30,177 bases of DNA from a virus, in IMG/VR virus record IMGVR_UViG_3300035698_002955, positions 1 through 30,177 of that record; one strand, 5' to 3'. The translations under genes were made by a program, and so were the position numbers. Below the pieces are notes generated by a model. That model saw only the letters and a list, made by a program, of their open reading frames with translations. It ran no database searches and was not told the origin of the DNA. This document shows positions 4,113 through 30,177 of the stretch, one piece after another. Within the stretch, counting starts at the first letter, position 1; the number at the start of each line of letters is the position of its first letter.

Positions 4113-5237
4113 TTAACCGACCATCTCAGGGCGAATAGTTGAGCGCGACACTTCCCCGTGGTCTTTGTGGTACGTAATAACACTAGCCCCACGTTTCGAA
4201 AGCCACCCACCACGAACAGCGTAAGCGTCCTTTGCGGCAAGCGTGGGGTGTTGCTCAACAATCATCAAGCTGTCTTCTTTAACATCTACATGATGTTTGT
4301 GACCTAGATGCGCATAAGAGTATTCAGTGCGCCCAAACATATCCCTATACAAACCAGCAAAGACGCTAGACGAATTGGTGACTGTTCTTTTGTGACCATG
4401 ATGGAAAAACAAACTTGTCTTACCCCATTCGTAAGCGTAATAAGGGCTGTTCGTGTCGTCAACCGTTACCCGTGGATCGTCTTCGTACTTCTCATAAAAC
4501 AGCTCACGCAACCAAACGCTTCCGCTTGCGTCGTGGTTGCCTTCTGCAAGTATAATGTGAACATGCCCGTGCTTTTCCAGTAGCATCTGCACTATCTGCC
4601 GTATACCACGAATAGCCGCTCGTACTATCTTGGGGTAGCGTGCGTCAGCGTCCAGCACATGCCCGCTGGCTGGCGTAACTGAATTTAGACTGTCATAGTG
4701 CAGGAAGTCGCCTAGCTGCGCTATGATGGCTGTGTCTGAGTGCGGAGCGGCCTCAATTGCAGAGCCAAACCAATCTATAAGCATCTTAGACGCTATTTCA
4801 GTATCCCACTCATCGCCAGTCTCACCAGCCCACGAAAGCATCCCCATATGGTAATCCGTTACTACATAGCATGATGCTAGATTGTCGTTTGTTAGTGGGG
4901 TGCTGTTGTTGGGCAGTTCGCGCGGGATATCTTCACGCAATGCGGCGATGGCTTCGCGCATCATCTCTTCTTTACGCTCCAGATCCTCAGTGGTTTTAAC
5001 CCACTCGATTTTCTTGTCGCCCGTCTGGGCATCACGTAAAAATGATGTTCCCTTTAGTTTCATACCATCAGGGATAGAAAACCCGTTATCAACTAAACAT
5101 TCACAATGTCTAATCCATCTGCGAACTGTGCTTGGGGACATTCCATTTGTGCGAGAGAAAGCACGAACGGAAACCTCAATATTAACCCTCTCCAAAAAGG
5201 ATAACGCCTCTGGCTTTGTTTCTGGTCTTGTATTCAT
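4113..5237 (-). CDS. HTH plus calcineurin-like metallophosphoesterase
   Basis: A 374-residue protein. Residues about 17-45 contain a helix-turn-helix-like segment (RAFSRTNGMSPSTVRRWIRH). From residue 121 it is a calcineurin-type metallophosphoesterase with all metal motifs in order: D128-x-H130 (TDYHMG), GD177 (QLGDFLHYD), GN234-H235-D236, H280-G-H282 and GH313-K-H315. Enzymes of this fold hydrolyse phosphomono- or diesters, often in nucleic acids, using two metal ions. AAGGGGG precedes ATG 5237. It lies between the tail fibre group and lysis genes. Substrate cannot be read from the sequence. Nuclease, 2',3'-cyclic phosphodiesterase or RNA-end processing are all possible. Confidence 0.85.
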   Translation of the reverse strand: MNTRPETKPEALSFLERVNIEVSVRAFSRTNGMSPSTVRRWIRHCECLVDNGFSIPDGMKLKGTSFLRDAQTGDKKIEWVKTTEDLERKEEMMREAIAALREDIPRELPNNSTPLTNDNLASCYVVTDYHMGMLSWAGETGDEWDTEIASKMLIDWFGSAIEAAPHSDTAIIAQLGDFLHYDSLNSVTPASGHVLDADARYPKIVRAAIRGIRQIVQMLLEKHGHVHIILAEGNHDASGSVWLRELFYEKYEDDPRVTVDDTNSPYYAYEWGKTSLFFHHGHKRTVTNSSSVFAGLYRDMFGRTEYSYAHLGHKHHVDVKEDSLMIVEQHPTLAAKDAYAVRGGWLSKRGASVITYHKDHGEVSRSTIRPEMVG

Positions 5238-8830: not shown

Positions 8831-8859
8831 AGTATATAAAAAAAATCACCTTTTCGCAA
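8831..8859 (-). promoter_or_regulatory. predicted sigma70-type promoter of gp46 (leaderless)
   Basis: Minus strand TTGCGA (8854-8859), 17-bp spacer, TATACT (8831-8836). The gp46 ATG begins 7 nt after the -10, at the expected transcription start. The spacer contains an 8-T run. Confidence 0.65.
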
Positions 8860-8867
8860 AATAGTTA

Positions 8868-8920
8868 TTGACTGGCATTTAAAAATAAAATAAGATAGCC
8901 TTAGTTAAACAACGAAAGAC
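8868..8920 (+). promoter_or_regulatory. cassette promoter and conserved leader, copy 1
   Basis: TTGACT (8868-8873), 17-bp spacer, TAAGAT (8891-8896), then a leader with TTAGTTAAACAACGAA. The same block recurs at 12304 and 17121. The spacer is the A/T-rich near-palindrome TTTAAAAATAAA-type core seen in all copies. Confidence 0.8.
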
Positions 8921-8926
8921 GAATAA

Positions 8927-11056: not shown

Positions 11057-12259
11057 CTATGAGATGCCTTTTATGTCGCTATCGTTTACAGAAAAATTAA
11101 CGTTAGGGTTTAATTCTGATAGCGTGTCTATGTTTTCGATGTTGGCATAATATCTGTACGATGTCAGTGCTAGGCTGCTTTCACCGCTCTGAATATCAAC
11201 AACTCGCCATGTGTTTTGTTGTTTTTGGTCGAACACCTTGCGGCTCGTTGAGCGTAACTCATTCATCAGTGATTTCACGTCTGGATTGAAGATCAACCCG
11301 TCATCGGATGACGTTGCAATAATCGTATCGTATGTTTGCTCTAGGTCATTCTTTGTCTCTATTAGCTCATCATCCGTTTCATAATCAGCGTATGTAGCAG
11401 CCTCGTAAGCTGAAGCAAGGGCATTAACGCGGGTTAAGTCCTCAAACACACTAAGATTGTTTTCCTCATTAATACGCTTCTGCGTTGTAAGGCTATTTGA
11501 CACGCGGTCATTGCCGAATAATGTCAAACCTAAGAAACCAGAGTAGAAAGAGCCTATATTCTCGCTTACATTCTCAAGGGCGTTATAAGCACCTCGTATG
11601 CTTTGTATAAACGAAGCGCCGCTTCTTACTACCGAGCTTGAGGTGTGTTCGGCAATGTCTAAAACACCATCAAGTGTGGTTACGTTGTCTGGAATTAGAT
11701 CATCAACACCTGCGGGGAAGCTGCCTATTGTTGTTAGTGTATCCGTAAATTGAGCTGTACTTGCTTGTAGTATGTATGGCGTTTTAAGGTCTATAAACTG
11801 ATCTGTAAACGCAATATCAAGAGATGCTTTAACTTGGCTGGACACGGCGGAGACAAGGCTTGTACTGTCAACAGTGGCGGATAGCGTGATATTATCTTCG
11901 CTCTCCTTAAATGTTATTGAAAATTTAAACTCGCCAATTGCGGTATCTCTAGATTTTGAAGACCATTCAGTGGCAACAACCATTAGCTGCCCATAAGTAG
12001 GGTGAATTAAAAGCCCACGCCCAGCCTTGTCCAGTTCCCCTTCAAAGCTTATACGCTTTTGGATAGCGTCCACACCATGTATGATTGCCGTGACAGAAAA
12101 CGACCCAGCTTGCGCCCCCAACTCCTCCACAAAGCGCCTTTTGTTTGCGCTTGGGTATTCGTGGTCAACAGTCTTTTTACCACCAGAGCGTGTCTCGTCT
12201 GGGGTTAAAAATTCTATGCCATTATATGATGCTGATAGTAGGTTTTTAAATACGCTCAT
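11057..12259 (-). CDS. Mu gp43 (gpN) family tail protein / DNA circularisation-type N-terminus
   Basis: A 400-residue protein. The N-terminal domain (about 1-90: LLSASYNGIEFLTPDE, GGKKTVDHEYPSANKRRFVEELG, then LLIHPTYGQLMVVATEWS) matches the DNA-circularisation-protein N-terminal family, a T4 gp53/LysM-like baseplate element in contractile tails. The central part is helical and linker-like. I set the start at ATG 12259 (MSVFKNLL). The upstream ATG 12268 lies inside the perfect -10 TATAAT and cannot be on the transcript. The ATG is 8 nt after that -10, so the mRNA is probably leaderless. Confidence 0.85.
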   Translation of the reverse strand: MSVFKNLLSASYNGIEFLTPDETRSGGKKTVDHEYPSANKRRFVEELGAQAGSFSVTAIIHGVDAIQKRISFEGELDKAGRGLLIHPTYGQLMVVATEWSSKSRDTAIGEFKFSITFKESEDNITLSATVDSTSLVSAVSSQVKASLDIAFTDQFIDLKTPYILQASTAQFTDTLTTIGSFPAGVDDLIPDNVTTLDGVLDIAEHTSSSVVRSGASFIQSIRGAYNALENVSENIGSFYSGFLGLTLFGNDRVSNSLTTQKRINEENNLSVFEDLTRVNALASAYEAATYADYETDDELIETKNDLEQTYDTIIATSSDDGLIFNPDVKSLMNELRSTSRKVFDQKQQNTWRVVDIQSGESSLALTSYRYYANIENIDTLSELNPNVNFSVNDSDIKGIS

Positions 12260-12266
12260 AATTAAC

Positions 12267-12295
12267 ATTATATGTTAGAGGTGCAAAAAAAACAA
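12267..12295 (-). promoter_or_regulatory. predicted promoter of the gp43-type gene (leaderless)
   Basis: Minus strand TTGTTT (12290-12295), 17-bp spacer, perfect TATAAT (12267-12272). The coding ATG at 12259 starts 8 nt after the -10. The layout is the same as at 8831 and 17084. Confidence 0.65.
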
Positions 12296-12303
12296 AATAA
12301 CTA

Positions 12304-12356
12304 TTGACCTTTATTTAAAAATTAAATAAGGTAGTTGTAGTTAAACAACGAAAGAA
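12304..12356 (+). promoter_or_regulatory. cassette promoter and conserved leader, copy 2
   Basis: TTGACC (12304-12309), 17-bp spacer with TTTAAAAATTAAA, TAAGGT (12327-12332), and leader TAGTTAAACAACGAAAG, followed by AAGGA as ribosome binding site for the gene at 12367. Confidence 0.82.
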
Positions 12357-12366
12357 GGATTAGACT

Positions 12367-12822
12367 ATGGAAGATAACAAGCAAAGAGACGAAGAAATAT
12401 TCTTGATGAGAATTGGCGGTGATACGTTTGCTAATATAGCTAAAATGCACAACTTACCTGTACACACTTGCAGATCGGTATTCTCTAAAAAAATGAGGGC
12501 TTTCAATAGGAAGCATAAAGAATTTGAGATTGTTGAGCTTGATTTGTTGGCGAAAATTGCTGCCTTATCAATCGCCAACAAAAGGCTTAAACTACAAGCG
12601 ACAAACCACAAGGCTATCAAGGACGGGCTGTCCATAGTGCTTAACTATGGTTACTTTTCCAACAGAACTGCGACCTTATTCCAGAAGAACAATATTAAAA
12701 CTCTAGGGGATATACTCAAACGCAGCAGACGGGATTTTGAAAAAATGAAGGGGTTAGGTAAAGATGGTATGAAGGAAGTTTTAAAGTTCCTTGACCAAGG
12801 CGGCATGACTATCGGTGATTAA
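12367..12822 (+). CDS. HTH plus RNA-polymerase alpha-CTD-like protein (putative regulator)
   Basis: A 151-residue protein. Residues about 8-48 read as a helix-turn-helix of sigma-region-4/resolvase style (FANIAKMHNLPVHTCRSVFS). Residues 55-88 form a linker helix. Residues about 92-150 strongly resemble the C-terminal domain of the RNA polymerase alpha subunit: SNRTATLFQKNNIKTLGDIL, then MKGLGKDGMKEVLKFL and GMTIG. Arg100 aligns with alpha R265 and G131 with G296. N268 and K298 equivalents are replaced (T103, D133). In alpha this helix-hairpin-helix domain binds UP-element DNA and activators. A DNA-binding transcription regulator is inferred. The gene is alone in its cassette and overlaps the tape measure stop by 4 bp. 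Confidence 0.8.
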   Translation: MEDNKQRDEEIFLMRIGGDTFANIAKMHNLPVHTCRSVFSKKMRAFNRKHKEFEIVELDLLAKIAALSIANKRLKLQATNHKAIKDGLSIVLNYGYFSNRTATLFQKNNIKTLGDILKRSRRDFEKMKGLGKDGMKEVLKFLDQGGMTIGD

Positions 12823-14285
12823 TTGTATGCTATAGGGACGGCGGCACCACCACTAGAAACGTTCGTACCAATATTGGACGGTGCGTTAACCCCGAACTCT
12901 GCGCTATTAACTGAAGCGCCACCAGATGCGGTAACATCAATACTGCCGTTAAGCGTGTTTTGATTTGCTGCGCCTTGTGCGGCTGGGTTTCCGCCCATTC
13001 CGCCAGCAATGAACTCCTCAGAAGCTTTTTGCCTATACTGAGAGAAAGCCATAGCAGACTTGGAAACACCAGCTAAGTCTTTTAGGCTATCAGGGACTTT
13101 TATCATTGGTAACATATCAATAACCCGCAAAATAAGCTTGAACGGCATAAGGATAGCGTCCATAAGAACCGCGCCAATGCCAGTAAATACATCCAAAAGA
13201 AGGTTGCCTAAACCCAATGCGGCTGCGGTCATCGCCTGCCACACGCTGTCAGACTTAGCGAGAAGAAACACAAACGATGCAATAAGAACGCCGACAACAG
13301 CCACAAGCGCCGCAATGGGGCTGAATACAAGTACGAAGCCAGCCGCGATAAACGGCGCTGCCATGCCTATAGCGCCAAGGGCTATCAGTAGCGGGGCAAT
13401 AGCCGCGACAATTAAAGATATAGCAACTATAAGTTTTTTACTTTCTTCGCTAGTACCTATAAACGATGTCTGTAGCTTGTCTATAACGTTCAACGCCTTA
13501 GTTGCTTGCGGCATAAGAAGCTTACCGAAGCTCTCACTTAGTGTTTTATTATTCTCTGTAACTTTTCTTTGCATGTTAGCATAACTGGCTTTCGTGCGTT
13601 CATAGTCGCCGACAGCGTTCTTGCTTCTCTCCATAATGAGGTTTAACGTGGCCTGTGCTTTAGCCTCGTTCTCTGTCGCGAATACATACCCCTCGCGCTT
13701 CATTTGCGATAGCTTCCTTTTTATATCAACCTCCAATATCTTAATACCTAATGACTCAAGAGCGTCTCGCTGACCAAGAAGGGCTTTCGTTAGGATAACG
13801 TTTGCTTGAGACGCGCCACCAGCGAAATTCTTAAACGAAACTAAATCCTGAGAGGCTGAACCCAAAGACAAAGACAGAGCAAGCGCAGCGTCAGAAGTAA
13901 ACCCTATGCCTGTAAGTATGTCAGCACTGTATGATAGCATTTCTTGAGATGTGCTTTTTGCTAGACCAAATGATTTAGCAAAGCCATCAGCGGCAGCAAA
14001 TGCCCTGCTCTCTATATCCTTAAAAATAAACGCAAACTTACTTCGTGTCTCCTCCGCATCGGAGGCAGCATTAATCATACTCTTTCCAAGCAGGAGGATA
14101 GGTACTGTAGCCACAGCCCCCATAATAGCACCAGCCTTCACCATAGACTTACCCATCTTGCCAACTGATTTAGAAGTTTTGTCGAAGGTTTTTCTCATAC
14201 GGTTTGTGGTATCGCTAATTTTCGCGGCCTTGCGCGAATACTTATCAACTATCTCGTAAACATATGATATTGAAAACTTAGCCAT
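12819..14285 (-). CDS. tail tape measure protein
   Basis: A 488-residue protein with N-terminal helices (SDTTNRMRKTFDKTSKSVGK), then a TP901-type tape-measure core (FAKSFGLAKSTSQEM, LLGQRDALESLGIKILEVDI). A long hydrophobic region follows at about residues 280-345 (LIVAAIAPLLIALGAIGMAA and onward), as needed for membrane passage. A Gly/Ala/Asn-rich tail closes it. The protein sets tail length and is ejected with the DNA. With about 0.15 nm per residue (known rule) a short tail of around 70 nm is predicted. It follows the frameshifted chaperone gene. Confidence 0.92.
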   Translation of the reverse strand: MAKFSISYVYEIVDKYSRKAAKISDTTNRMRKTFDKTSKSVGKMGKSMVKAGAIMGAVATVPILLLGKSMINAASDAEETRSKFAFIFKDIESRAFAAADGFAKSFGLAKSTSQEMLSYSADILTGIGFTSDAALALSLSLGSASQDLVSFKNFAGGASQANVILTKALLGQRDALESLGIKILEVDIKRKLSQMKREGYVFATENEAKAQATLNLIMERSKNAVGDYERTKASYANMQRKVTENNKTLSESFGKLLMPQATKALNVIDKLQTSFIGTSEESKKLIVAISLIVAAIAPLLIALGAIGMAAPFIAAGFVLVFSPIAALVAVVGVLIASFVFLLAKSDSVWQAMTAAALGLGNLLLDVFTGIGAVLMDAILMPFKLILRVIDMLPMIKVPDSLKDLAGVSKSAMAFSQYRQKASEEFIAGGMGGNPAAQGAANQNTLNGSIDVTASGGASVNSAEFGVNAPSNIGTNVSSGGAAVPIAYN

Positions 14286-17083: not shown

Positions 17084-17112
17084 ATAATACACGCCGTTTT
17101 AAAAAACTTCAA
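17084..17112 (-). promoter_or_regulatory. predicted promoter of the gp38-like/sheath transcript (leaderless)
   Basis: Minus strand TTGAAG (17107-17112), 17-bp spacer, TATTAT (17084-17089), then 6 nt and the ATG at 17077. Same geometry as the two other cassette boundaries. Confidence 0.65.
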
Positions 17113-17120
17113 ATTAACAC

Positions 17121-17172
17121 TTGCAATGCATTTAAAAATTAAATAAGATAGTTTTAGTTAAACAACGAAGGG
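17121..17172 (+). promoter_or_regulatory. cassette promoter and conserved leader, copy 3
   Basis: TTGCAA (17121-17126), 17-bp spacer containing TTTAAAAATTAAA, TAAGAT (17144-17149), leader TTAGTTAAACAACGAA, then GAAGGG as ribosome binding site for ATG 17181. Confidence 0.8.
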
Positions 17173-17180
17173 CGAAAACA

Positions 17181-17995: not shown

Positions 17996-18070
17996 GCGGG
18001 CGTAGCTCAGTGGTAGAGCCATCCGCTCATAACGGATTGGTCGCTGGTTCGATCCCAGCCGCCCGCACCA
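17996..18070 (+). tRNA. tRNA with CAT anticodon (elongator Met or Ile2)
   Basis: A complete cloverleaf. The acceptor is GCGGGCG paired with CGCCCGC, with A discriminator and encoded CCA. The D arm is GCTC/GAGC. The anticodon stem is ATCCG/CGGAT with loop CTCATAA (CAT at 18028-18030). The T arm is GCTGG/CCAGC with loop TTCGATC. It is not an initiator: G1-C72 is paired and the three G-C pairs of the anticodon stem are absent. The variable and T region (TTGGTCGCTGG) resembles E. coli tRNA-Ile2, so an AUA-reading lysidine tRNA is possible. Confidence 0.93.
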
Positions 18071-29753: not shown

Positions 29754-30177
29754 CTATTCTCCTTCTTTGGTTGGGTTTAAAATCTTACGCTCTTTCGAAA
29801 CCTTACAAGCCGCACGAACCATCATCGTATAGCCAGATCGTGCGCCGTATTTTTTGGTAACTGCTACGAGAGCATCTTTTTCTGTACCCCAAAAACAACC
29901 AAGTCTAACCATTGTTCCATCTGGCGTCCAAATTGCGTAACCCGTGCGTACTTCCTCTCCTACTTGCCCGATACATATGGGGATTATTACGTTTTTGGCA
30001 TCGCTCAGGTCGGCATCGCGCAGGTTGGTACCGAGCAGGTCGGTACCGCGCAGGTCGGCATAGCGCAGGTTGGCATCGCTCAGGTTGGCATCGCTCAGGT
30101 CGGCATCGCGCAGGTTGGCATAGCGCAGGTCGGCATCGCGCAGGTTGGCATAGCGCAGGTCGGTACCGCTCAGGTCG
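29754..30177 (-). CDS. pentapeptide-repeat protein, N-terminus beyond the window
   Basis: The frame is open from the right edge to TAG 29754-29756. About 60 visible residues (30177-29998) are pentapeptide repeats of form A-D/N-L-R/S-x ([17 protein letters not shown]), predicting a right-handed quadrilateral beta helix. The last 80 residues form a separate domain ([40 protein letters not shown]) ending in a basic helix. Pentapeptide proteins can mimic DNA against gyrase, but in phages most have no known role. The start and full length are outside the window. Confidence 0.85.
29998..30177 (-). repeat. 15/30-bp tandem repeat coding pentapeptides
   Basis: Near-perfect 15-bp units (GCC GAC CTG CGC TAT type) coding the pentapeptide solenoid. 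The nucleotide identity between units is very high, including several GGTACC units, which suggests recent unit duplication. Confidence 0.85.

Follow-up and report, generated by a model that had tools for sequence, protein, structure and literature searches.

The C-terminal domain of the RNA polymerase alpha subunit (alpha-CTD) is best known as tethered to polymerase, and alone it does not bind the polymerase core. Its DNA contacts in E. coli are R265, N268, C269, G296, K298, S299 and E302 (RNCGKSE); N268, C269, K298 and S299 grip the UP element, which is positioned upstream of the -35 box, while D258, D259 and E261 contact sigma region 4 and E286, V287 and R317 contact CRP. Phage alpha-CTD proteins are already known as database annotations, several of them carrying nothing but that label, and the BFVD holds more phage proteins titled 'RNA polymerase, alpha subunit, C-terminal'. 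The literature searched contained no functional study of phage alpha-CTD proteins or fusions. Here we describe such a protein, of 151 aa, from a contractile-tailed phage.

The gene and its site in the phage

The window, i.e. the whole 30,177-bp IMG/VR contig that was analysed, carries sheath, hub, portal, capsid and protease genes. The sequence and an ORF check give an intact 151-codon frame with an ATG start, preceded by a ribosome-binding site:

12367..12822, plus strand: coding sequence, with its stop, of the 151-aa protein with sigma4-HTH and alpha-CTD-like domains
12353..12359, plus strand: ribosome-binding site AGAAGGA, 7 nt 5' of the ATG, read from the sequence

The flanking genes, both on the minus strand, are those for the tape measure (12819-14285) and the baseplate hub (11057-12268). 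The stop of our gene overlaps, in TTAA, that of the convergent tape-measure gene.

Some other features of the window are recorded here: (i) a DNA repair exonuclease (4113-5237) has about 50% identity to exonucleases from enterobacterial phages, LIMEzero and J8-65 among them, while the structural genes have no relatives as close; (ii) a tRNA-Met (CAT) gene (17996-18070) lies immediately 3' of the third accessory cassette; (iii) a perfect 52-bp direct repeat (487-538 and 1513-1564) has an ATG in each copy, the copies lying about 1 kb apart; (iv) tandem 12-bp repeats (929-1143) within ORF 497-1207 encode a repeat of the R/W-D-A-A type; and (v) tandem 15-bp repeats (29980-30174), cut by the record end, translate as pentapeptide repeats on the minus strand.

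The C-terminal domain

12616..12819, plus strand: RNA polymerase alpha-CTD-like domain, residues 84-151, by Pfam, NCBIfam, profile and fold match

Residues 97-143 match PF03118 at 27.8 bits (28.4 in a second run) against the curated cut-off of 23.8, and the top NCBIfam matches are all rpoA models, extending back to residue 58 or 76. Residues 100-150 align gap-free, over 51 residues, to the alpha-CTDs of solved alpha subunits. A profile made from 12 alpha-CTDs, with the 151-aa protein left out, scores it at 35.5 bits, compared with 13.0 for the best of 20,000 shuffles. In an AlphaFold2 model, residues 84-151 fit alpha-CTD chains with Z 10.6-10.7 and an rmsd of 1.6 Å over 67 residues, throughout which the numbering differs from that of E. 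coli alpha by a constant offset of 165, and the predicted helices (99-107, 113-117, 121-125 and 131-144) occupy the positions of the four alpha-CTD helices. Judged by profile statistics and predicted fold, the identification of residues 84-150 as an alpha-CTD domain is statistically firm. An earlier sequence-only reading had proposed such a C-terminus, to be checked by structure prediction, and had placed the alpha R265 position at R100; the Pfam cut-off, shuffles, homologues and modelled fold all bear out the domain, and the residue was placed correctly. The 151-aa protein gave no match to PF01000 or PF01193, which represent the alpha N-terminal assembly domain.

The five-row alignment used for the model (mean pLDDT 85) took in alpha-CTDs and one sigma4-alphaCTD homologue, so the model is not fully independent of the sequence argument; its pTM of 0.41 does not fix the arrangement of the domains. 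A single-sequence run gave pLDDT 44 and no usable model.

The N-terminal half and homologues of the same architecture

12385..12510, plus strand: sigma-region-4-type helix-turn-helix (HTH), residues 7-48, by profile, homologue alignment and model
12460..12627, plus strand: recognition helix that continues as a single long helix, residues 32-87, a possible dimer coil, by AlphaFold2 model and register

Taken alone, the HTH falls below cut-off for Sigma70_r4_2 (residues 7-37, E 0.014-0.038), and residues 1-48 resemble the DeoR HTH with a Z of 7.9 (rmsd 1.9 over 48) that is typical of common helical arrangements. The assignment to sigma region 4 rests on a homologue, the phage protein P0006, and not on the HTH profile alone. 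Residues 7-77 score 60 against the true Sigma70_r4 region of P0006; shuffles average 27.8 (sd 5.2) and none of 5000 reached 60, and the sigma-region-4-style HTH of the earlier reading is thereby supported. No profile match to sigma region 2, which serves -10 recognition, was found in the 151-aa protein. A register check of the long helix places leucines at 60, 67 and 74, with I64 and N71, and by this helix the protein may dimerise.

P0006 (MT835636.1) has HTH_17, Sigma70_r4 and PF03118 domains, each over cut-off, and its contig bears integrase, ParB, terminase and portal genes, as of a temperate gut phage; a near-identical copy is found in IMG/VR record 2906454065_000002. BLASTP joined the two proteins in a single unbroken alignment, residues 7-150 of ours against 117-266 of P0006. 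The order of HTH, long helix and alpha-CTD is also seen in MT837876.1, a second fecal contig (short and unverified). A profile of this sigma4-helix-alphaCTD order, whose rows were P0006, a plasmid protein described below and the MT837876.1 protein, with the 151-aa protein left out, scores the latter at 42.8 bits, and no shuffle among 20,000 exceeded 14.7. The N-terminal half alone also ranked first of 20,001, narrowly (14.1 vs 13.3). From recognition helix to R265 position there are 66 residues in the 151-aa protein and 73, 74 and 82 in the others.

The homologue survey that had been suggested thus turned up proteins of the same order in phage contigs and a plasmid, and no close homologue. Direct searches with the 151-aa protein in IMG/VR, GTDB genomes, and phage and plasmid records gave nothing usable, and a genome scan with a three-row alignment gave no homologue. 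The scans were seeded by patterns and pick up only close relatives, so that they are weak evidence of rarity. The best-preserved core-less 'upstream promoter' module found, a phage protein with excisionase-type HTH_17, sigma region 4 (RERVRQI) and alpha-CTD, is encoded at L023:8923-9921 and L026:4662-5660.

The cassette promoter and accessory status

12293..12360, plus strand: cassette promoter and leader block, copy 2 of 3 (direct-repeat family D4)
12304..12332, plus strand: sigma70-like promoter with -35 TTGACC, 17-nt spacer and -10 TAAGGT (consensus 5/6 and 3/6)
12313..12327, no strand: perfect inverted repeat ATTTAA-AAA-TTAAAT, candidate operator, read from the sequence
12269..12818, no strand: insertion of accessory DNA, about 550 bp, separating the tape-measure stop from the baseplate-hub start; missing in the closest relative

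The earlier reading had the gene as the sole one of a cassette with its own promoter, and this stands: a 68-nt promoter-leader block occurs in three copies (8857-8924, 12293-12360 and 17110-17177), of which the first shares 81% identity with the second and 78% with the third. Each precedes plus-strand accessory genes within the minus-strand structural region. Conservation among the three blocks is highest in the leader, TAGTTAAACAACGAA(A/G)G. At 12304 the promoter agrees with the consensus in 8 of 12 positions, and its -35/-10 spacing is kept in all three copies. The inverted repeat lies mostly within the spacer, its last base being the first of the -10 box; it is perfect also at 17121 and has one mismatch at 8868. 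As an idea from the sequence, it is a natural operator candidate.

The spacer itself, TTTAAAAATTAAA, had been likened to an UP element for its A/T-richness. This did not hold, since UP elements sit upstream of the -35 and this tract lies between -35 and -10. In the 24 bases directly 5' of the -35 box, A+T makes up 75%, compared with 54% on average in the window.

In the closest relative phage, whose sheath is 82% identical, only 2 bp separate the tape-measure stop from the hub start, and its record has no PF03118 match. It does have a diverged promoter-leader block ahead of its own accessory genes. Because the relative lacks the gene at this same site, we regard it as a moron-like accessory gene, the alternative being loss in the relative; this is judged against one contig, the only relative found in searches for more. 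Morons are recognised by an own promoter and terminator; here the promoter block is present, and no terminator was found 3' of the gene. A scan of IMG/VR with the promoter-leader pattern matched only unrelated sequence without the promoter.

Proposed function and alternatives

The 151-aa protein unites two promoter-reading parts of bacterial RNA polymerase without a core binder, and pieces like these recur in unrelated phages and a plasmid; it probably regulates transcription by binding DNA, as a nearly unstudied kind of regulator. Our preferred reading, held at slightly better than even, is that this accessory phage gene encodes a small basic regulator, made of the sigma4-HTH, a perhaps dimerising helix and an alpha-CTD-derived domain, that blocks or resets promoters. 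The HTH would recognise a particular operator through the major groove, and the alpha-CTD-derived helix-hairpin-helix would add a second, mainly non-specific DNA grip through R100, G131-K132 and a basic surface. Seated on A/T-rich promoter DNA, the protein would block or reset host polymerase. The first candidate targets are its own repeated cassette promoters, with the inverted repeat in the -35/-10 spacer.

The contact residues bear on this reading. At the seven DNA contacts the protein has R, T, L, G, D, G and E, i.e. three of seven kept (R100, G131 and E137), with N268, C269, K298 and S299 replaced by T103, L104, D133 and G134. As four contacts are lost, we infer DNA binding by this part from its charge and from the conserved residue at the R265 position. 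The whole protein has a pI of 9.9 and a net charge of about +11, and the pI of the CTD part is 9.6, against 5.1 for the E. coli alpha-CTD. The HTH has lost most residues that read the -35: R588 alone is kept among the sigma70 recognition-helix residues R584, E585, R588 and Q589, the sequence reading VHTCRSV where sigma70 has RER(V/I)RQI.

One alternative, which we consider unlikely, gives the alpha-CTD part a role in protein contact: it would touch host RNA polymerase, at sigma region 4 or some other factor, and with the HTH anchored on phage or host DNA the enzyme would be recruited or captured. Alpha-CTD folds are classical contact surfaces, complexes with Spx, CAP, CII and AfsR are among the fold matches, and other phages keep canonical alpha-CTD DNA contacts on different N-termini. 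The contacting residues themselves, however, are mostly gone. None of the acidic 261 determinant is kept (D258, D259 and E261 are N93, Y94 and Y96), and in the 287 determinant E286 and V287 have become R121 and R122, T285 and E288 are conservatively changed, and the chain stops before R317; nor is there any core-binding part in the 151 residues. The lost contacts and determinants and the strongly basic character suit a retargeted DNA binder better than they suit polymerase recruitment or competition for UP elements, and by sequence we judge promoter occlusion or reset more likely than recruitment. Thus the domains assigned by the sequence-only reading are upheld by sequence, homologues and fold, whereas its proposals that polymerase is redirected, or that UP elements and activators are competed for, lose ground with the missing determinants and core-binding part.

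Less probable still, the protein would serve host takeover or superinfection by coating A/T-rich DNA or host promoters without sequence specificity, in the manner of a small nucleoid protein. This would suit the high net charge and pI and an accessory insertion with its own promoter, and Bacillus phage Goe8 has an alpha-CTD gene among its first genes. Against it, the HTH is kept and is similar to sequence-reading HTHs, and PADLOC yields a weak match to PglW, a protein reported to have an alpha-CTD-like domain (PMC12839542), and nothing else.

That the C-terminus is a generic helix-hairpin-helix scoring as alpha-CTD by chance is very improbable: there is a sub-threshold match to a DUF3701 phage-integrase protein, but the curated PF03118 cut-off is passed, generic HHH families are missing among the matches, and the four helices and constant offset follow alpha-CTD. 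A decaying, functionless relic of a captured regulator, as the loss of most functional determinants and the lack of close homologues in searches might suggest, is likewise hardly credible beside an intact frame, a good ribosome-binding site, a promoter block in three copies and a confident fold.

A wider and rather doubtful speculation is that phages and plasmids have repeatedly fused sigma region 4 (for the -35) and alpha-CTD (for the UP element) into a core-less protein occupying the upstream half of promoters, our protein being a diverged, retargeted version that would rule its own cassette promoters.

Comparison with known systems

A scan of IMG/VR with a degenerate alpha-CTD alignment gave three further kinds of small phage protein with PF03118 (60-78 bits): L018 (147 aa, near helicase loader and invertase genes), L019 (208 aa) and L020/L021 (153 aa). 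Unlike the 151-aa protein, these keep all seven DNA contacts. Three other hits (L022, L024 and L025) were discarded as rpoA, full-length or cut by a contig end. In the third kind (L020:3818-4279 and L021:864-1325) the fully canonical alpha-CTD, at 78 bits, sits mid-way in a phrog_2201-like protein, a common phage type that is phrog-like at both ends, as a recent-looking insertion.

Two annotated phage proteins, Goe8_c00050 of Bacillus phage vB_BmeM-Goe8 ('RNA polymerase subunit alpha') and gp26 of Microbacterium phage Mazun ('DNA binding protein'), resemble ours in having the alpha-CTD at the end and differ in their N-terminal parts, which hit no Pfam HTH family at E up to 1. The Goe8 record (MN043729.1) has an alpha-CTD protein in its first genes (L029:1959-2591), and there is a second matching place in the record; such a position is a typical one for host-takeover genes.

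Stand-alone and fused alpha-CTDs of phages and plasmids, some with every DNA-contact residue intact, are natural tools for separating the DNA role of the domain from its role in the enzyme. They also point to a so far unstudied route by which mobile elements may act on host promoters.

P0006 shares with our protein the order of sigma4-HTH, long helix and alpha-CTD, but is longer (332 aa), has an excisionase-type HTH_17 in front and is 24% identical; it keeps RERVRQI as in sigma70 region 4 and five of the seven DNA contacts, which ours does not. WP_124785686.1, from a mobilizable plasmid of Chryseobacterium taklimakanense, has Sigma70_r4 and PF03118 in the same order, both over cut-off, and differs in its length of 294 aa, an extra N-terminal part and six of seven contacts kept. 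Ranked by these contacts, all seven are found in L018, L019 and L020, six in the plasmid protein, five in P0006 and three in the 151-aa protein. Our protein is unlike bacterial RNA polymerase alpha in having no alpha N-terminal domain, in being basic and not acidic and in its lost determinants, yet has in common with the alpha CTD both the fold and the gap-free alignment of 51 residues.
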